DNA of 57,495 nucleotides. Origin: Flavonifractor sp. An92. Lineage in GTDB: Bacteria > Bacillota > Clostridia > Oscillospirales > Oscillospiraceae. The position numbers and the translations under genes are program-made. This document shows, piece by piece, positions 49,446 to 56,663 of the stretch. The stretch's first letter is position 1. Every line of letters begins with the position of its first letter. The notes beneath the pieces were generated by a model. The model was given only the letters and a program-made list of their open reading frames with translations. It did no database searches and was not told the origin of the DNA. The DNA is taken from positions 1 to 57,495 of the forward strand of contig NZ_NFGZ01000019.1 in NCBI RefSeq assembly GCF_002159175.1, in the 5' to 3' direction.

Positions 49446-49487
49446 AGAATAACACGGCGGCGTCCGAGATACGGTTGTACCGCCAAC
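49446..49487 (-). promoter_or_regulatory. Crp/Fnr-type site and promoter of the esterase gene
   Basis: On the minus strand the operator reads GTTGG-CGGT-ACAAC (49474-49487), one mismatch from the consensus, centred 29.5 bases upstream of the -10 TATTCT (49446-49451). No good -35 exists, as expected for an activator-dependent promoter. Confidence 0.75.
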
Positions 49488-49501
49488 GGGGCCGTGATTG
49501 T

Positions 49502-49966
49502 TTAGGGATTGAGCCGCCAGATCACCAGATTGAGGTAGCCCGCATAGCTGACCCAGAGAAAATAGGGCACCTGCAGCCAGGCGGCGGCGGGGCTGGCCGA
49601 GTCGAACACCATCATCATGAGGAAAATGGACACCCACAGAAGGCACAGGCAGATCAGCGCGCCCAGATAGGCTCCGGCCCCGAAGAACAGCAGGCTCCAG
49701 GCCGCGTTCAGCGCCAGCTGGACACACCAGAGCACGAAGGCAGTCCTGTGCTCCGTGCCCACCCGCCGCAGTACCAGGGCGAGGCCGATGCCCATCAGCA
49801 GGTACAGCACCGTCCACACCACTGGAAACAGGGCCCCCGGCGGGGTCAGAGGCGATTTTTCCAGCAGCGGATAGACCGTCTCCAGGCCGGTGCGGGCGAA
49901 ATAGCCGGACAGAGTTCCCACACTCAGCGCCAGAAGGGGGAAGAACAGGAAGCCTCGTTTTTTCAT
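49502..49966 (-). CDS. tspO: TspO/MBR family membrane protein
   Basis: Five-helix membrane protein of 154 residues, normal for TspO. LTPPGALFPVVWTVLYLLMGI and LNAAWSLLFFGAG are diagnostic. Family members bind porphyrins and other hydrophobic ligands and act in stress and tetrapyrrole responses. Of two adjacent ATGs the one at 49966 has better spacing from GAAGGAG. It lies 14 bases after the DUF308 gene and shares its activator-type promoter. Confidence 0.95.
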   Translation of the reverse strand: MKKRGFLFFPLLALSVGTLSGYFARTGLETVYPLLEKSPLTPPGALFPVVWTVLYLLMGIGLALVLRRVGTEHRTAFVLWCVQLALNAAWSLLFFGAGAYLGALICLCLLWVSIFLMMMVFDSASPAAAWLQVPYFLWVSYAGYLNLVIWRLNP

Positions 49967-49980
49967 CATCGTCTCCTTCG

Positions 49981-50418
49981 TCAAGACGCCCGGGAATGGG
50001 CTCCGCGCCGGACCGACCAGTGCCGGAACAACAGGGTGACAGCGGCGGCCAGGAAATAGATGCCCCACACCGTCGTCAGGGCAAACCAGCTGACGATGGG
50101 GTTGAAGAACATCAGCAGGCTCAACAGATAGTTCAGGACCCCGCTCACCAGCATCCAGACGCTGCGGAGCTCTTTTGCGGCCAAAAAGAAGGCAGCGGCC
50201 TGGGAGATCCCGTAGAGCAACAGCGCGGCCGTCAGGAAGAAGGCGAAACTCACGCCGGCGGCCAGGGGAAAGGCCAGCGCGGTGAGGCCGAGGACGGCCA
50301 GGAGCAGCGCGGAGAGCAGCTCCATGCTGCGGCTCCTTCCGGGTTCCAGGTTCTGCGCGTCCAAGGGCTGGTACTCGGCGTCCAGCACCGTGTCCATTCT
50401 GTGATTGTTCCGGTCCAT
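49981..50418 (-). CDS. DUF308 (HdeD-like) membrane protein, upstream of tspO
   Basis: Membrane protein of 145 residues, with a hydrophilic N-terminus of about 30 residues and four helices (around 33-53, 57-77, 85-105 and 108-128). LLLYGISQAAAFF and FFNPIVSWFALTTVWGIYFLAA match the repeating helix-pair pattern of HdeD/DUF308 proteins, which in E. coli are linked to acid stress. Shorter than the two-repeat form (compare the 185-residue copy at 55993). It heads a two-gene operon with tspO, controlled by the operator at 50520-50533. Confidence 0.82.
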   Translation of the reverse strand: MDRNNHRMDTVLDAEYQPLDAQNLEPGRSRSMELLSALLLAVLGLTALAFPLAAGVSFAFFLTAALLLYGISQAAAFFLAAKELRSVWMLVSGVLNYLLSLLMFFNPIVSWFALTTVWGIYFLAAAVTLLFRHWSVRRGAHSRAS

Positions 50419-50491
50419 AGGCGACCCCTCTCCAAATCAAACTGGCTCGGATGCGGCGCGGCGGATTCCGCCCGGCATCTGAACTGTATCC

Positions 50492-50534
50492 AGCATACCA
50501 GAGGGACTGGGTTGGAACGGTTGTTTGAACAACC
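50492..50534 (-). promoter_or_regulatory. Crp/Fnr-type site and promoter of the DUF308-tspO operon
   Basis: A perfect palindrome GTTGT-TTGA-ACAAC (50520-50533) with extra flanking G/C. On the minus strand it is centred 29.5 bases upstream of the -10 TATGCT (50492-50497). Confidence 0.85.
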
Positions 50535-50540
50535 AAATCA

Positions 50541-50581
50541 AAAAATGCTCCGGAGACCGATTGCGTCTCCGGAGCATTTTT
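50541..50581 (-). terminator. Intrinsic terminator of the second Crp/Fnr gene
   Basis: Perfect 17-bp stem beginning AAAAATGCTCCGGAGAC with a 7-base loop and T-runs on both ends. It overlaps the stop of the regulator gene. Confidence 0.93.
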
Positions 50582-51287
50582 ATTGATTGGGGTCCCGCTC
50601 TTCTTCGGTGATGGGCATTTCGATGAGAAGCTCAAATTTGCTCTTCTCGAATTTCAAAAGCCCCTCGTCCCGCATTTTGCACAGCTCGTTGGACATGGCG
50701 CTGCGGTCCACAAAGAGGAAGTCGGCCATATCCTGCCGGTTCAGCGGGATGGAGAAGGTGCGTCTGCCCGCCTTGTGGAACTCCCCGGACAGGTAGTCCT
50801 GCAGGCGCTCCCGGGTGGAGCGGCGGATGCTGTCCTCCAGCTTGCGGGTCAGACGGTGGGCCTGCTGGGCCACCGCCAGGGTGAGGTTCTGCAAAAACCG
50901 GATCTGGACCGGGGCGGTCAGCACGTGCTGGCGCAGCAGCTGGCTGACATTGAGAAAGAGGATCTCGGTCTCGGTGGTGGCCTCCGCTGAGATGTGCAGC
51001 CGGTAATCTCCGATGGCGTTCAGCAGGCCGATGGCCTCGCCCGTGCCCAGATTTTCCATCAGATTGCTGTTTCCGTTGGCGTCAATGTGGAACAAGTGGA
51101 GATTTCCCGACAGGATCACCCCCACCTGGGTCATGGGATCTCCGTCCCGCATCACCAGCGTGCGCTTGGGATAGACCCTGCGGTGGGAGGCGATGGTCCC
51201 CAGCGCCTCCAGGATCTCGCGGTCCTCCATGTTGCGAAACAGCAGCCCTTTTTTCAAAACGGCAAGCATCGTTTCCTGGTCCATCAT
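50580..51287 (-). CDS. Crp/Fnr family transcriptional activator (second of two, proposed regulator of the local regulon)
   Basis: DNA-binding activator of 235 residues. The start at 51287 has AAGGGG upstream; longer frames run through the promoter. The N-terminal effector domain (about 10-125) contains LVMRDGDPMTQVGVILSGNLHLF and a typical beta-roll. A long dimerisation helix follows, then a helix-turn-helix with LNRQDMADFLFVDRSAMSNELCKMRDEG (recognition helix near the serines and asparagine) and a winged end. No FNR-type cysteine cluster exists. Five GTTGT-N4-ACAAC sites around the gene all sit at about -41.5 of nearby promoters, so this protein is the natural candidate to bind them. Its signal is unknown. 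Confidence 0.9.
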   Translation of the reverse strand: MMDQETMLAVLKKGLLFRNMEDREILEALGTIASHRRVYPKRTLVMRDGDPMTQVGVILSGNLHLFHIDANGNSNLMENLGTGEAIGLLNAIGDYRLHISAEATTETEILFLNVSQLLRQHVLTAPVQIRFLQNLTLAVAQQAHRLTRKLEDSIRRSTRERLQDYLSGEFHKAGRRTFSIPLNRQDMADFLFVDRSAMSNELCKMRDEGLLKFEKSKFELLIEMPITEEERDPNQ

Positions 51288-51327
51288 ATCCGCTTCGCCC
51301 CTTTTCAACCAAGATGTAGATAAGATA

Positions 51328-51356
51328 ACGATAGCCAAAACCGGGGAGCTTGTCAA
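51328..51356 (-). promoter_or_regulatory. Promoter of the second Crp/Fnr gene
   Basis: On the minus strand TTGACA, 17 bases, TATCGT. A strong -35 suggests constitutive basal expression. The operator at 51377-51390 lies about 62 bases upstream of its start. Confidence 0.7.
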
Positions 51357-51376
51357 TTGTGTGACATGGCATTTTC

Positions 51377-51418
51377 GTTGTACAGACAACCGATTTTCCA
51401 CCGTCCAGGGCCCATAAT
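51377..51418 (+). promoter_or_regulatory. Crp/Fnr-type site and promoter of the LRR/SLH gene
   Basis: GTTGT-ACAG-ACAAC (51377-51390), a perfect 5+5 palindrome, centred 29.5 bases before the -10 CATAAT (51413-51418). It sits between the regulator and the surface-protein gene and may serve both. Confidence 0.85.
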
Positions 51419-51470
51419 CCACTCAGCGGACCAGTCAGACCGTTCGCCATTTGAAAAGGAGAATTTGTCT

Positions 51471-54044
51471 ATGAAGGTATGGAAAAAAGGCATTTTTCTG
51501 GTGTTGACGCTGGGAATGACGGGAGGGATGTTCCTGACCGGAACCGCCCAGGCGCTGGACGTCCCCGTCGACAGCAGCACCTTCCCCGACCCGGCGTTTC
51601 TGAGCTATGTCCAGAAGCGGGATACGGACGGGGACGGGCTCCTGTCCCAGTCCGAGCGGGACGCGGTTACCCAAATGGACCTGCGCAAGCTGGGCATTCA
51701 GGATCTGAGCGGCCTGGAGTGGTTTTCGGCCCTGGAATCGCTGAATTGCAGCGAGAATGATCTGGTCAGCCTGGAGCTGGCGGATTTTCCGGCGCTGACC
51801 TCCCTGACCTGCAACGAAAATACCAGACTGACCGAACTGACGCTGAGCGGCGTGCCCGCGCTGGAGCAGCTCCACTGCTTCGACAGCGGCCTCTCCCAGC
51901 TGGATCTGCACGGCGTACCCAATCTGACCTACTTCGTCTGGGGCGGAAGCCCGTTGGAGGAGCTGGATCTCAGTGGGAACCCCAATCTGCACACCCTCCA
52001 TGTCCTGGGGGGCAACCTGACCCATGCGGACCTGTCCCACAACGAAAAGCTGGACACCCTCTTGTGGAACCACACCTGGATCGAGACGCTGGACCTGTCC
52101 CACCAGACCGAGCTGACCTATCTGAACTGCACCGACAACCACCTCACCGCCCTGGATCTCAGCGGCAATGAGAAGCTGGAGACGGTGTACGCCGGGAACA
52201 ACCGCCTGCTGGCCATCCGGCTGCCCCAGGACAGCGTGTCCTTCTGCGACCTGAGCGGCCAGCGCCCGGTCCCCGTCTCGCTGACCCAGGGAGAAAATAC
52301 AGTTTCGCTCACCGACCTGGTCCCCTGGATGGACCCGGGCCAGGTCAGTGCGGTCAGCGGCGGGACCCTGGAGGGGGACCGCATCCGGCTGGATGCCCCC
52401 AACCAGAGCATTACCTACCGCTATACCGACGGAGCGGCCACCCTGGACGCCGCTCTGGAGGTCACGGGGGAGAATGGATGGCTGGTGCCTCTGCACCTGG
52501 AAAACTGGACCTATGGTGAGAACCCGGCCACGCCCCAGGCGCAGCCGACTTTTGGAACGGCGGTCTTTTCCTATGGCGCCTCGCCCCAGGGGCCTTTTCA
52601 GCCGGAGCCGCCCACCACGGCGGGCACCTGGTACGTCCGGGCTACCGTGGAGGGGACTGACCAGTATGAGGGCCTGGAGGCGGTGGCCCCCTTCCGCATC
52701 GAGCCGGCCGTGCCCGAGTATCAGCCCCCGGAGGTGAAATACGCCACCTATGGAGATTTCCTGGCGGAGATTGCCCTGGAACCCCAGTTTTCCTGGGAGG
52801 ACGGGGAACTTCGGGTGGGTAATGTGGGGACACAGACCCATCTGGCCCGCTACACGCCGCTGGACCTGATCGACTATCAGGTGGTGGAGCACATCCCGGT
52901 CCAGATCGAGGTCGCCCCCTATGACGGCACCCGGCTGCCCATTCCCCCCATCGGCAGCCGCGAGGAGGCGGAAAACCTGGTCATCCGGCACGGGGACTGG
53001 GTGCTGCAAAAAGGGGTAGACTATGAGACCACGCTGGAGGACCAGGGCGAAAATGTACAGGTCACCATCCGCTTTCAGGGCAATTATACGGGAACGGTCC
53101 TGCGGACCTTTGACCGGGAGACCGGGACCGGCGGCGGAAGTACGGCAAACACGTTCTGGATCTCCGCCCAGGCGACGGCGGGCGGGAGCATGACCCCCAG
53201 CGGGAAACTCCGGGTCATGGAGGGGGACACCCCCAGCTTCACCATCACGCCCCGGGAGGGCTACCGGCTCCAGGATGTTCTGGTGGACGGCCGGTCTGTG
53301 GGAGCGGTGACCACCTATCGCTTTGCGCCCGTGACCGCATCCCACACCATCTCCGCCCGGTTTGTCCCCCTGAATAGCGGGCCGTCCCCGGAGGAGACCG
53401 GCGTGGCGGACCTGCTGGAAACTCAGTCCCATCACGCCTATGTGTTCGGCTATCCCGATGGCCGCTTTGGCCCTGACGACCCCATGACCCGGGCGCAGGC
53501 GGCCCAGATCTTTTACTCTCTCTTGAAGGATAAAGACGTCCCCATCGCGGCGGGCTTTTCCGATGTGACCGCCGACGCCTGGTATGCCCGGGCCGTCAAC
53601 ACCCTGGCGTCGCTGGGGAAGGTGGCCGGCGTGGGGGAGGGAAAATTCCTGCCCGACCGGCCTATCACCCGGGCGGAATTTGTGACCATGGCCATGGGCT
53701 TTGCCCGCCCCGCGTCCGGTGCGGCCTGCGCCTTCCCTGATGTGGGACCGGAGGACTGGTTTTACGATGCGGTCATGGGTGCGGCGGAGTACGGCTGGAT
53801 CTCCGGCTGTCCCGACGGGAGCTTTGCCCCCCAGCGCCTGGTGACCCGGGGAGAGGCCGTTTCCATCCTCAACCGGATGCTGGACCGCCGGGCCGACCGG
53901 GCCTTCCTGGACGAGCACGCCGACGTGCGGAGGTTCCCGGATGTGCCGGCATCCCACTGGGCCTTTGACGCGATCTGCGAAGGGGCCAATTCCCACGACT
54001 ATCAGCGGACCGACGGAGGGGAGGTATGGGAAGGTCTGCTGTAA
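51471..54044 (+). CDS. LRR surface protein with SLH cell-wall anchor
   Basis: Exported protein of 857 residues; ATG at 51471 follows AAAAGGAGAA. Signal peptide to about residue 28. A calcium-loop-like DTDGDGLLSQSE (51-62) precedes about nine leucine-rich repeats (about 75-270; units such as LEELDLSGNPNLHTLHV). Ig/MBG-like segments follow (about 300-560), then a bacterial-repeat unit with TPSGKLRVMEGDTPSFTITP and DGRSVGAVTTYRF. Three SLH domains fill the C-terminus (about 645-840; AYVFGYPDGRFGPDDPMTRA, KFLPDRPITRAEFVTMA, SCPDG-like GCPDGSFAPQRLVTRGEA). The SLH domains bind secondary cell-wall polymer. Likely an adhesin or scaffold whose expression needs the activator. Confidence 0.9.
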   Translation: MKVWKKGIFLVLTLGMTGGMFLTGTAQALDVPVDSSTFPDPAFLSYVQKRDTDGDGLLSQSERDAVTQMDLRKLGIQDLSGLEWFSALESLNCSENDLVSLELADFPALTSLTCNENTRLTELTLSGVPALEQLHCFDSGLSQLDLHGVPNLTYFVWGGSPLEELDLSGNPNLHTLHVLGGNLTHADLSHNEKLDTLLWNHTWIETLDLSHQTELTYLNCTDNHLTALDLSGNEKLETVYAGNNRLLAIRLPQDSVSFCDLSGQRPVPVSLTQGENTVSLTDLVPWMDPGQVSAVSGGTLEGDRIRLDAPNQSITYRYTDGAATLDAALEVTGENGWLVPLHLENWTYGENPATPQAQPTFGTAVFSYGASPQGPFQPEPPTTAGTWYVRATVEGTDQYEGLEAVAPFRIEPAVPEYQPPEVKYATYGDFLAEIALEPQFSWEDGELRVGNVGTQTHLARYTPLDLIDYQVVEHIPVQIEVAPYDGTRLPIPPIGSREEAENLVIRHGDWVLQKGVDYETTLEDQGENVQVTIRFQGNYTGTVLRTFDRETGTGGGSTANTFWISAQATAGGSMTPSGKLRVMEGDTPSFTITPREGYRLQDVLVDGRSVGAVTTYRFAPVTASHTISARFVPLNSGPSPEETGVADLLETQSHHAYVFGYPDGRFGPDDPMTRAQAAQIFYSLLKDKDVPIAAGFSDVTADAWYARAVNTLASLGKVAGVGEGKFLPDRPITRAEFVTMAMGFARPASGAACAFPDVGPEDWFYDAVMGAAEYGWISGCPDGSFAPQRLVTRGEAVSILNRMLDRRADRAFLDEHADVRRFPDVPASHWAFDAICEGANSHDYQRTDGGEVWEGLL

Positions 54045-54062
54045 AGAAAGAAATACCACCCC

Positions 54063-54104
54063 GTTGTACAGACAACCTACTATTTGTGCCCCGTGGGCTA
54101 TGAT
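54063..54104 (+). promoter_or_regulatory. Crp/Fnr-type site and promoter of the oleate hydratase gene
   Basis: GTTGT-ACAG-ACAAC (54063-54076), identical in its core to the site at 51377, centred 29.5 bases before the -10 TATGAT (54099-54104). Confidence 0.87.
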
Positions 54105-54164
54105 AGGTACAGAAGGAACAAACCACCAGCCAAAACGCTGGAATATCGATTAGGAGAACGGATT

Positions 54165-55910
54165 ATGTACTATACCAATGGAAATTACGAAGCATTTGCC
54201 CGCCCCCGCAAGCCCAAGGACGTGGACTTCAAGTCCGCCTGGCTGGTGGGCTCCGGCCTGGCCAGTCTGTCCGCCGCCGCCTTTCTGATCCGGGACGGCC
54301 AGATGCCCGGCGACCACATCCACATCCTGGAGGAGGCCGCCCTCCCGGGCGGCGCCTGCGACGGCCTGCGGATGGAGGAGCTGGGCTTCGTCATCCGGGG
54401 CGGCCGGGAGATGGAGAGCCACTACGAGTGCCTGTGGGACCTGTACCGCTCCATTCCCTCCCTGGAGGTGGAGGGAGCCAGCGTGCTGGACGAGTTCTAC
54501 TGGCTGAACAAGGACGACCCCAATTTCTCCAGGAACCGCGCCACCCTCCAGCAGGGGGAAAGCGCCAACACGGGGAACCGGTTCGAGCTCAGTGACGAGG
54601 CGGCCTTGCAGCTCATGCGCCTCTTCTTCACCCCGGACGAGGACCTCTACGACAAGACCATTGACGACGTGCTGGACGAGTCTTTTTACCGGTCCAACTT
54701 CTGGCTCTACTGGCAGACCATGTTCGCCTTCGAGAAGTGGCACTCCGCGCTGGAAATGAAGCTGTATCTGCAGCGCTTCCTCCACCACATCGGCGGGCTG
54801 CCCGACCTGTCGGCCCTGAAGTTCACCAAGTACAACCAGTACGAATCCCTCATCCTTCCCCTGGTGGCCTACCTGAAGGAGCACGGCGTCCGGTTCGAGT
54901 ACGGGGTGAAGGTGACCAACGTCCTCTTCCACTTCCTGCCCGACAAGAAACTGGCCCACCAGCTGGTCCTGCTCCGCAATGGGAAGGAGGAGGTACTGGA
55001 GCTGACGGAACACGACCTGGTGTTCGTCACCAACGGCTCCTGCACCGAGGGCTCCGCCCTGGGGGACAACGAGCACCCGCCCCGCCTGACGGTGGAGGAT
55101 GGCGAGGGCTCCAGCTGGACCCTGTGGAAGCACATCGCGGTCCAGAATCCCCTCTTTGGCCGCCCGGAGAAATTCTGCTCCGACATCGAGGCCACCAAGT
55201 GGGAGTCGGCCACCGTCACCCTGCTGGATGACCGCATCGCCCCCTACATCCAGGACATCTGCCAGCGGGACCCCTATGCCGGCAAGGTAGTCACCGGCGG
55301 CATCGTCACCGTCAAGGACTCCGCCTGGCTGATGAGCTGGACCTTCAACCGCCAGCCCCATTTCAAAGAGCAGCCCAAGGGGCAGCTGGTGGGGTGGATC
55401 TACGGCCTCTATCCCGACGAGCCCGGCGATTTTGTGGGCAAGCCCATGGCGGAGTGTACCGGCGCCGAGATCTGCATGGAGTGGCTGTACCACCTGGGCG
55501 TGCCGGAAAACCTCATTGAGGAGCTGGCCCGGGAGAGCGCCAGTACCGTTCCCTGCATGATGCCCTACGTCACCGCCTTCTTCATGCCCCGCGCGGCCGG
55601 TGACCGCCCCAACGTGGTGCCCGAGGGCTGCGTCAACTTCGCCTTCCTGGGCCAGTTCGCCCAGACCGAGCGGGACACCATTTTCACCACCGAATACTCC
55701 GTCCGCACGGCCATGGAGGCCGTCTACACTCTGCTGGATGTGGAGCGGGGCGTGCCGGAGGTCTACGCTTCCGTCTACGACATCCGCAGCCTCCTCAACG
55801 CCGCCCACTACCTGCTGGACGGCCGGAAGCTGACCGAAATGAAGCTCCCGCTGCCCCTCAAGGTGGCCATGCACGCCGGACTGGACAAGCTGGACGGCAC
55901 CACGATCTAG
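54165..55910 (+). CDS. ohyA: Oleate hydratase (myosin-cross-reactive antigen family)
   Basis: FAD-dependent enzyme of 581 residues that adds water to cis-9 unsaturated fatty acids, giving 10-hydroxy acids, a known detoxification of oleate and linoleate. The Rossmann motif is AWLVGSGLASLSAA (25-38), followed by GGACDGLRM and RGGREMESHYECLWDL with the conserved Glu82 region that activates water. NGSCTEGSALGDN and SAWLMSWTFNRQPHF are further family landmarks, and the C-terminus has FLGQFAQTERDTIFTTEYSVRTAMEAVY. The start is the ATG after TAGGAG; an earlier methionine frame is unlikely. It heads an operon with DUF308. Confidence 0.95.
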   Translation: MYYTNGNYEAFARPRKPKDVDFKSAWLVGSGLASLSAAAFLIRDGQMPGDHIHILEEAALPGGACDGLRMEELGFVIRGGREMESHYECLWDLYRSIPSLEVEGASVLDEFYWLNKDDPNFSRNRATLQQGESANTGNRFELSDEAALQLMRLFFTPDEDLYDKTIDDVLDESFYRSNFWLYWQTMFAFEKWHSALEMKLYLQRFLHHIGGLPDLSALKFTKYNQYESLILPLVAYLKEHGVRFEYGVKVTNVLFHFLPDKKLAHQLVLLRNGKEEVLELTEHDLVFVTNGSCTEGSALGDNEHPPRLTVEDGEGSSWTLWKHIAVQNPLFGRPEKFCSDIEATKWESATVTLLDDRIAPYIQDICQRDPYAGKVVTGGIVTVKDSAWLMSWTFNRQPHFKEQPKGQLVGWIYGLYPDEPGDFVGKPMAECTGAEICMEWLYHLGVPENLIEELARESASTVPCMMPYVTAFFMPRAAGDRPNVVPEGCVNFAFLGQFAQTERDTIFTTEYSVRTAMEAVYTLLDVERGVPEVYASVYDIRSLLNAAHYLLDGRKLTEMKLPLPLKVAMHAGLDKLDGTTI

Positions 55911-55992
55911 GAACTGCTCCGCCGCTACGGCTTGATCTGAGCGGCCGCCCATCCTGACTGCACTTCGTTCTGATATCAAGGAGGTAACTACT

Positions 55993-56550
55993 ATGACACT
56001 GCAATTCTTCTGGTCCCGGACAGCCTCTGTCTGGATCGCGCTGCTCTACATGGCCCTGGGGATCCCCCTGCTCCTCTTCCCGGGGCTCAGCGGCTCCGTC
56101 TTTGTGTGGGCCCTGGCCGGAGGGGCCGCCGTCTACGGCATCAGCCACCTGTGGCGGTATCTCCAGGCCCGTAAATCCGGACAGGCCTCCGGCGGAGATC
56201 TCTTCCTCACCGTCCTCCCGCTGGCCTTCTCCGTCTTTGCCATCGCCTGGCCCCAGGACATCCTCGCCTTCCTGCCGCTGGTGCTGGGTTCCCTCCTGCT
56301 GGTGGACGGCGTGGGGAAACTCCCCCTGGTCCTCGCCGCCACCCATTCCAGAAACTCCGTCTTTGTCCCCCTGCTCCTCTCCTCCCTGATCCCACTGGTC
56401 CTGGGACTCCTGCTGGTCATCAATCCCTTCCACGCCGCTCAGATCGTCATCATGGTCTTTGGCGCGGCCCTGCTGGCCGACGGGATCAGCGACCTGACCA
56501 CGGCCCTCCTGTCCCGCAAGTCGGATGCCGGAGGAAAAGCCCCGGACTGA
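55993..56550 (+). CDS. DUF308 (HdeD-like) membrane protein, downstream of oleate hydratase
   Basis: Six-helix membrane protein of 185 residues made of two DUF308-type repeats (around 12-100 and 105-175). VWALAGGAAVYGISHLWRYLQARK and IVIMVFGAALLADGISDLT are the repeat ends. AAGGAGG is in the 82-base gap, which has no terminator, so it probably shares the hydratase transcript. Acid or membrane stress tolerance is the usual suggestion for this family. The shorter homologue with tspO in the same proposed regulon reinforces the link. Confidence 0.85.
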   Translation: MTLQFFWSRTASVWIALLYMALGIPLLLFPGLSGSVFVWALAGGAAVYGISHLWRYLQARKSGQASGGDLFLTVLPLAFSVFAIAWPQDILAFLPLVLGSLLLVDGVGKLPLVLAATHSRNSVFVPLLLSSLIPLVLGLLLVINPFHAAQIVIMVFGAALLADGISDLTTALLSRKSDAGGKAPD

Positions 56551-56567
56551 CCGTCCGCTTCTGCCTG

Positions 56568-56600
56568 AAAACCAGGACGCCCCCGGGCGTCCTGGTTTTC
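56568..56600 (+). terminator. Terminator of the oleate hydratase operon
   Basis: Stem AAAACCAGGACGCCC paired with its complement, ending in TTTTC. It isolates the operon from the next promoter. Confidence 0.88.
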
Positions 56601-56621
56601 TAATCACCGCTTTCCGGTCCG

Positions 56622-56663
56622 GTTGCGTGGACAACCGAGTATTCCGCCCCCCAATGGTACCAT
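56622..56663 (+). promoter_or_regulatory. Crp/Fnr-type site and promoter of the CmpB-like gene
   Basis: GTTGC-GTGG-ACAAC (56622-56635), one mismatch from the palindrome, centred 29.5 bases before TACCAT (56658-56663). The promoter-proximal half ACAACC is perfect. Confidence 0.75.

Follow-up and report, generated by a model that had tools for sequence, protein, structure and literature searches.

A predicted self-contained Crp/Fnr regulon around an oleate hydratase gene in Flavonifractor, with half-sites shared with HcpR-type systems

Introduction

Class II CRP/FNR-dependent promoters carry a 14-bp two-fold symmetrical box centred at -41.5, which covers part of the region where the missing -35 element would stand. 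Here we analyze five promoters that appear to be of this class, and the gene for a Crp/Fnr-family regulator that lies among them, in a stretch of 57,495 nucleotides from Flavonifractor sp. An92 (contig NZ_NFGZ01000019.1). This stretch, called the window throughout, is the entire contig C11 of a 3.49 Mb genome. Like class II promoters, those of the window have a 14-bp two-fold box at an inferred -41.5 over a missing -35; they differ in the sequence of the box, GTTGN6CAACC.

The described regulators that bear most on this locus are the HcpR proteins, in particular the HcpR2 branch known from Clostridia and Porphyromonas. In the parts of the papers available to us, HcpR of C. difficile controls frdX and hcp (PMC12915319), the HcpR2 consensus is given as GTAACnnnnGTTAC, with other, unspecified motifs in C. 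thermocellum, C. difficile and P. gingivalis (PMC1274295), and Met68 of P. gingivalis HcpR is a haem-coordinating residue (PMC12750200). The window regulator has the Crp/Fnr architecture in common with HcpR, and it shares a recognition helix and a half-site with local HcpR-type paralogues; it differs in that it does not lie beside hcp or frdX and in that its sensor has diverged. The best sequence match among solved structures is a distant one, the Crp/Fnr-family protein Lmo0753 of Listeria (7T8O; E 8e-8). When a structure model of the regulator was compared with known folds, HcpR of P. gingivalis (9DAY) had the highest template modelling score (TM-score) of the 50 structural matches listed, at rank 25 by E-value. 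Because the model is of low confidence (mean predicted local distance difference test score, pLDDT, 73.3; about 52-64 in the DNA-binding part), we take this search to support a Crp/Fnr fold and nothing narrower.

Our preferred reading, to which we give a rough probability of 0.84, is that the window holds a self-contained Crp/Fnr regulon, in which the product of the local gene at 50580-51287 activates five units by a class II mechanism. The class of mechanism is a known one; for the regulon, for its cassette form and for the diverged sensor, no description was found in the literature searched. That literature, outside which lay preprints and most subscription papers, contained in the parts covered no description of this regulon and no occurrence of the string GTTGTNNNNACAAC, and papers on Flavonifractor oleate hydratase, searched by title and abstract start, included none on its regulation.

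Five boxes at one distance from a -10 element

An earlier note on this DNA had described five palindromes, each with its centre 29.5 bases from a -10 hexamer, and had assigned them to the local Crp/Fnr gene. With the consensus GTTGTNNNNACAAC, scored over 10 positions and allowing at most one mismatch, we recovered exactly these five places and no others in the window (chance mean 0.70; none of 100 shuffles reached five), three of them perfect and two with one mismatch, as the note had it. Read in the orientations of Table 1, all five boxes are followed at exactly 22 nt by a -10-like hexamer matching TATAAT in at least 4/6 positions, which reproduces the distance of 29.5 nt from box centre to -10. 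With the start assumed 7 nt past the -10, the box centres would fall at -41.5, consistent with the class II position suggested by the note. The half-site turned toward the promoter is ACAACC in 5/5 boxes. The remark that none of the promoters has a good -35 also held, as the hexamers 15-19 nt upstream of the five -10s match TTGACA in no more than 3/6 positions; a weak or absent -35 is what class II promoters would be expected to have.

Single-genome motif lists of this sort are often the product of chance, and of the 15 near-matches outside the window (see below), 10 have no -10 at 22-23 nt, as would fit chance palindromes that happen to lie near chance -10 sequences. Shuffling apart, several results speak against this. 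The TATAAT score summed over the five window boxes is 22/30 at an offset of 22 nt and at most 14 at every other offset from 0 to 59, and among 20,000 randomly drawn sets of five window positions, not one attained 22 at any of the 60 offsets. In 200 Markov-1 resamples of the window there were no boxes of at least 9/10 with such a -10 at that distance, compared with five in the window itself. Together with conservation across genomes, which already refutes it, these data leave the chance explanation with next to no credibility.

The window regulator consists of a cNMP_binding sensor domain followed by HTH_Crp_2, the arrangement of the Crp/Fnr family, and the two-fold symmetry of the boxes at its predicted target promoters is likewise consistent with that family.

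Conservation of the boxes with the regulator

When the species genome set was scanned with the regulator proteins of the window and of genome G006, nine orthologous loci emerged, L096-L104 (62-90% identical), of which L098, L103 and L104 were judged to belong to G149, G006 and G407, respectively. The cassette genes surround the regulator in variable order and number. Of the six other unit genes searched for, five, all but the leucine-rich repeat (LRR) gene, were found in L097; L098 is without DUF308a and TspO; a single DUF308 gene was seen in L100; and in L101 and L102 one box stands ahead of an oleate hydratase-DUF308-TspO-DUF308 series. The -41.5 spacing proposed for the window recurs in these relatives: 18 of the 19 boxes upstream of cassette genes in the nine loci have a -10 at 22 nt, and the remaining one, at the LRR gene of L096, has it at 23 nt. 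With the window and L082 included, the figures are 24/25 and 1/25. Four of 23 boxes, at L097:4151, L097:10816, L098:9140 and L100:4881, were dropped from the count of 19 as they are not upstream of a cassette gene; the first is an 8/10 box with a 5/6 -10 at 22 nt, and that at L098:9140 lies inside the LRR gene. If no choice of genes is made and all 9/10 boxes in 14 sequences are taken, a -10 occurs at offset 22 in 26 cases and at any other offset from 8 to 44 in at most seven.

Each of the five window boxes has conserved counterparts. The esterase box and its 22-nt spacing are kept at the orthologous esterase promoters of L096, L097 and L098, and the DUF308-TspO box is kept in L097 and L104. 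The box of the LRR and S-layer-homology (SLH) gene is kept at 22 nt in L098, L104, L082 (G006) and L146 (G586). That of the oleate hydratase is kept in L097, L098, L099, L101 and L102, and L143 and L144 have 8/10 boxes there, also at 22 nt; that of the CmpB-like gene is kept in L097 (an 8/10 box), L098, L099 and at the CmpB-like gene of L144.

A search of 394 genomes of the order added regulator orthologues in G586 (66%) and G621 (68%). The spacing prediction held well in G586, where boxes with a -10 at 22 nt are found at the oleate hydratase (8/10 box), the CmpB-like gene and, on another contig, an LRR homologue of 41% identity. It held in part in G621: an 8/10 box followed by TATGCT at 22 nt precedes the oleate hydratase gene, and among the other cassette-like genes of this genome none combines a box of 8/10 or better with a -10 of this kind at 22 nt. 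The G621 oleate hydratase frame (L143:11003-11836) is just 277 aa long, with N- and C-terminal parts present and the middle absent. In the same locus, a gene for a bacterial PH-domain (bPH_1) protein (L143:11931-12419) follows a perfect box with TATGCT at 23 nt and may be a further regulon member.

We ran a refined core pattern, GTTGNNYRNACAACC, on the six whole genomes with the regulator. It matched 18 distinct places (G000, 4; G006, 2; G149, 4; G407, 5; G586, 1; G621, 2), and had no match in any of the six when read backwards. Thirteen of these places have a -10 at 22 nt, one has it at 23 nt and four have none (three in G407, one in G621). The four in G000 are four of the five window sites, and one of the two in G006 lies 62 kb from the regulator, ahead of the LRR/SLH orthologue. 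The LRR/SLH genes that lie away from the regulator, in G006 and in G586, thus retain the box with its spacing. Sites equally frequent and unspaced throughout the genome, which the earlier note had named as speaking against a regulon, were not what was found.

Boxes and regulator also occur together. Among 300 genomes of the family, the regulator is present in three (E<=1e-50) and an oleate hydratase in 54. Outside the cassette, 28 oleate hydratase loci were inspected (L108-L135, including one in G006), and not one of them combines a 9/10 box with a -10 at 22-23 nt. Locus L114 carries an 8/10 box with a -10 inside the gene, as well as a 9/10 box that lacks a -10, and L135 likewise carries a 9/10 box that lacks one. 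Among 391 genomes of the class, the regulator was detected in its own genome only. A second oleate hydratase of the window's own genome, 65% identical to that of the window, is encoded outside the cassette (C12:164294-166015). The proposal that the regulon is run by the local Crp/Fnr gene is thus supported by the retention of box and 22-nt spacing with orthologues of that gene.

HcpR-type paralogues carry the same half-site

The window's genome was searched on both strands with GTTGTNNNNACAACC (the box plus one C), allowing at most one mismatch in 11. Fifteen distinct places outside the window match, and a -10 of at least 4/6 is found at 22 nt in two of them and at 23 nt in three more. On contig C18, a box with TATAAT at 23 nt separates a Crp/Fnr paralogue from a 4Fe-4S ferredoxin gene of divergent orientation, and at C2:86302 a box with TATACT at 23 nt precedes a cupin-hydroxylamine reductase (Hcp) pair. 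A perfect box at C2:99736 (L064:18685-19738, minus strand), with TATTCT at 22 nt, stands ahead of an L-lactate dehydrogenase gene; its A/T core suggests an HcpR-type regulator rather than that of the window. Another perfect box, on C43 (L063:1-891) with TATACT at 22 nt, directly follows a further Crp/Fnr paralogue, its target being cut by the contig end. The fifth spaced match, on C36 with a -10 at 23 nt, lies in what we take to be 23S rRNA. The remaining four can be placed with paralogous Crp/Fnr systems or with unassigned promoters, so that the window regulon is not alone in having this half-site.

Homologues of the regulator were found in 36 of 60 related genomes at E<=0.001, and 41 proteins entered a tree after six of 47 were left out (four double-held locus copies, one 523-aa reading frame and one 22%-identical neighbour). 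Among the 31 non-cassette homologues in this tree, 16 show a box of at least 9/10 close to their own start: 15 have one 23-49 bp ahead of the assigned start, and one has a box overlapping it. Ten such loci were inspected for neighbours (L062, L068, L070, L072-L075, L077, L079 and L080), and eight have a divergent ferredoxin or Hcp gene, as judged from translations and, for the copies of the window's own genome, by hidden Markov models. Locus L079 ends at a contig edge, and no divergent ferredoxin or Hcp gene was recognised in L080. To judge from these neighbours, the box-bearing non-cassette homologues are HcpR-type systems, and because such paralogues carry the half-site at ferredoxin and hcp promoters, in the window's own genome as elsewhere, it is the HcpR-type half-site of the order. 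This extends the earlier reading of the locus. In one of these loci (L077:12024-12500, G031), a TspO-like protein, recognised from its translation, adjoins an Hcp gene under an HcpR-type box, which makes a second link between TspO and HcpR-like regulators.

These paralogues raise the possibility that the window boxes are bound by the HcpR-type regulator of C18, the five units being an extended nitrosative-stress regulon with the local gene as a neighbour or partner. The ferredoxin (C18) and hcp (C2) promoters of the same genome do have the same half-site and the same class of -10 spacing, and the recognition helices are nearly the same, that of the HcpR-type protein L036 being identical to the cassette's. 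On the other hand, the boxes accompany orthologues of the local gene, no 9/10 box with a -10 at 22-23 nt being present at the 28 oleate hydratase loci outside the cassette, and the ferredoxin and hcp boxes stand at 23 nt with A/T cores (AAAT), whereas the window boxes stand at 22 nt with mixed cores. Control by C18 therefore seems unlikely. More generally, the A/T fraction of the core is 0.46 in 25 cassette boxes vs. 0.96 in an HcpR-type set of 13, uncorrected for host base composition; the latter set includes two boxes of the window's own genome, at the lactate dehydrogenase gene and on C43, which are putative HcpR targets.

A kept recognition helix and a diverged sensor

All ten cassette regulators fall within a single clade (support 100/100), on a long branch among the HcpR-type rows of the midpoint-rooted tree. 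For residue comparisons L063 was also left out, giving 10 cassette rows and 30 others. The recognition helix VDRSAMSNELCKMRDEG is present in 10/10 cassette rows and is shared by L036, a protein of the HcpR type encoded next to a ferredoxin gene, so that the window regulator has both helix and half-site in common with HcpR-type homologues of the order. The sensor tells a different story. Position 86 is Phe in 30/30 non-cassette rows and Ile in 10/10 cassette rows, position 128 is His in 29/30 and Gln in 10/10, respectively, and position 88, Glu in 27/30 non-cassette rows, is Leu in the cassette regulator. The cassette sensor thus reads IGL in place of FGE, lacks the conserved Phe86 and His128, and has a new YRLHIS stretch (YRxH at 95-98). 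Neither hcp nor frdX is among the cassette genes of the window; the hcp and frdX boxes of the same genome lie elsewhere, the latter beside another Crp/Fnr gene, that of C18. A weak pairwise alignment places His67, found in 10/10 cassette rows, opposite the haem-coordinating Met68 of P. gingivalis HcpR, and the window regulator may have a haem-based sensor.

As judged from the tree and these alignments, the window regulator is a descendant or sister of HcpR-type regulators that has kept the DNA-reading helix and has a different sensor. It appears to be a relative of a nitric-oxide sensor that was put to a new use. A more speculative scenario, which we offer tentatively, is that a duplicated regulator of the NO-sensor type kept its DNA-reading head, gained a new sensor (e.g. 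for unsaturated fatty acids or some other signal from lipids or the envelope) and became part of a mobile self-contained cassette across gut-bacterial families, insulated from the HcpR network by the core bases (mixed Y-R vs. A/T) and not by the half-sites.

A model of class II activation

In the model that we favour, the regulator would probably be made from its own sigma-70 TTGACA promoter. A signal would put the sensor domain in an active state, upon which the dimer would bind the GTTG-N6-CAAC boxes at -41.5; each box overlaps the place of the missing -35, and the bound regulator would activate by the class II route. The activated units would be those of the esterase, DUF308-TspO, the LRR/SLH surface protein, oleate hydratase-DUF308 and the CmpB-like protein. 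Binding, the sign of control and the transcription starts are inferred here from the sequence, as are the ligand and the physiology discussed below; boxes, spacing, conservation, co-occurrence and HcpR-type relatedness are directly seen in it.

The local protein might instead bind the boxes as a repressor or dual regulator. Binding over the -35 region could also block RNA polymerase, and the position of the box 23-49 bp upstream of HcpR-type genes in relatives would fit self-repression. This sign of control nevertheless appears quite improbable for the window, where all five promoters are without a -35 and the box is held at a fixed class II distance that repressor sites would not need.

Several observations weigh against the favoured model. 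Promoters that are orthologous do not count as independent events, and L101 and L102 are nearly copies of one another. The G621 boxes are found at just two promoters, one being an 8/10 box and the other standing at 23 nt ahead of a gene from outside the window set. The esterase box of the window does not fit GTTGNNYRNACAACC, and three of the five G407 matches to this pattern have no -10. Lastly, cross-binding is possible since HcpR-type paralogues read the same half-site. The earlier claim of a local regulon gains comparative support, and is qualified by the shared half-site, by the partial result in G621 and by the lack of a conserved autoregulatory position (see below). A single site model for all boxes was tried and rejected, on account of the esterase box and the G407 matches.

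The esterase could release fatty acids and the oleate hydratase hydrates unsaturated fatty acids; alongside these enzymes, the cassette encodes a surface protein and four membrane proteins. In Bifidobacterium breve, a link between oleate hydratase and stress protection has been described (PMC3063827), and in Bacillus cereus TspO has been connected with porphyrin balance under anoxia (PMC13185565), according to the parts of these papers that were available. On the basis of this gene content and these links, the likeliest physiology would be fatty acid handling together with a response to lipid or envelope stress. A fatty acid or a related lipid or envelope signal as the ligand is a guess, and somewhat less probable than its opposite.

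If the model is correct, it describes a dedicated transcriptional switch for oleate hydratase, a gut-commensal enzyme that makes hydroxy fatty acids, and a regulator that comes with a ready-made set of five promoters. It would also provide a natural case of two paralogous regulators per cell with common half-sites, maybe told apart by the box core, and an example of a regulon that travels with its own activator.

Cassette genes and the regulator's own promoter

The targets named in the earlier note are borne out by Pfam and NCBIfam assignments (Table 1). The promoter-like site of the regulator gene has a good -35 and stands at no fixed distance from a box; TTGACA-17-TATNGT is found upstream of the regulator in 7/10 orthologues. 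The divergent box of the window stands 43 nt, counted from box end to -10, away from this promoter, a class I-like distance; for the six further orthologues whose promoter is of this type, the corresponding distances are 58, 59, 49, 84, 93 and 62 nt. Since these distances differ, there is no conserved autoregulatory position, and autoregulation from a fixed class I or class II position was rejected. A terminator-like hairpin separates the regulator gene from the DUF308-TspO unit, which is therefore probably independent of read-through.

Table 1. Genes, predicted activator boxes and other sites of the cassette, in window coordinates.
Feature	Coordinates	Strand	Remarks
Alpha/beta-hydrolase esterase, hormone-sensitive-lipase-like, 319 aa	48466..49425	-	Abhydrolase_3; best NCBIfam model GESAG_HSLs, below cut-off
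Predicted activator box, esterase unit	49474..49487	-	GTTGGCGGTACAAC, 9/10; -10 TATTCT at 49446-49451
TspO/MBR family protein, 155 aa	49502..49969	-	Pfam/NCBIfam
DUF308 membrane protein, 145 aa	49981..50418	-	Pfam/NCBIfam
Predicted activator box, DUF308-TspO unit	50520..50533	-	Perfect; -10 TATGCT at 50492-50497
Hairpin terminator-like site between regulator gene and DUF308-TspO unit	50541..50581	-	17 pairs; strongest of 8, 6.4 expected
Crp/Fnr-family regulator, 235 aa	50580..51287	-	cNMP_binding and HTH_Crp_2, both above cut-offs
Promoter-like site of regulator gene	51328..51356	-	TTGACA-17-TATCGT; 1 found in scanned stretch, 1.1 expected by shuffling
Predicted activator box, LRR/SLH gene	51377..51390	+	Perfect; -10 CATAAT at 51413-51418
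LRR and S-layer-homology surface protein, 857 aa	51471..54044	+	Pfam/NCBIfam
Predicted activator box, oleate hydratase-DUF308 unit	54063..54076	+	Perfect; -10 TATGAT at 54099-54104
Oleate hydratase (MCRA family), 581 aa	54165..55910	+	NF010584, 891 bits, above cut-off
Second DUF308 membrane protein, 185 aa	55993..56550	+	Pfam/NCBIfam
Predicted activator box, CmpB-like gene	56622..56635	+	GTTGCGTGGACAAC, 9/10; -10 TACCAT at 56658-56663
CmpB-like membrane protein, 240 aa	56721..57443	+	ABC_trans_CmpB

Distribution of the cassette

The window regulator is 87% identical to its counterpart in Butyricicoccus pullicaecorum, which the tree output places in another family, and 62% identical to that of Pseudoflavonifractor gallinarum, of the window's own genus. 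Among nine other genomes of the same genus, G006 alone has a close homologue (62%), and a regulator at that level is absent from the other eight. The cassette is thus patchily distributed and has probably moved horizontally.

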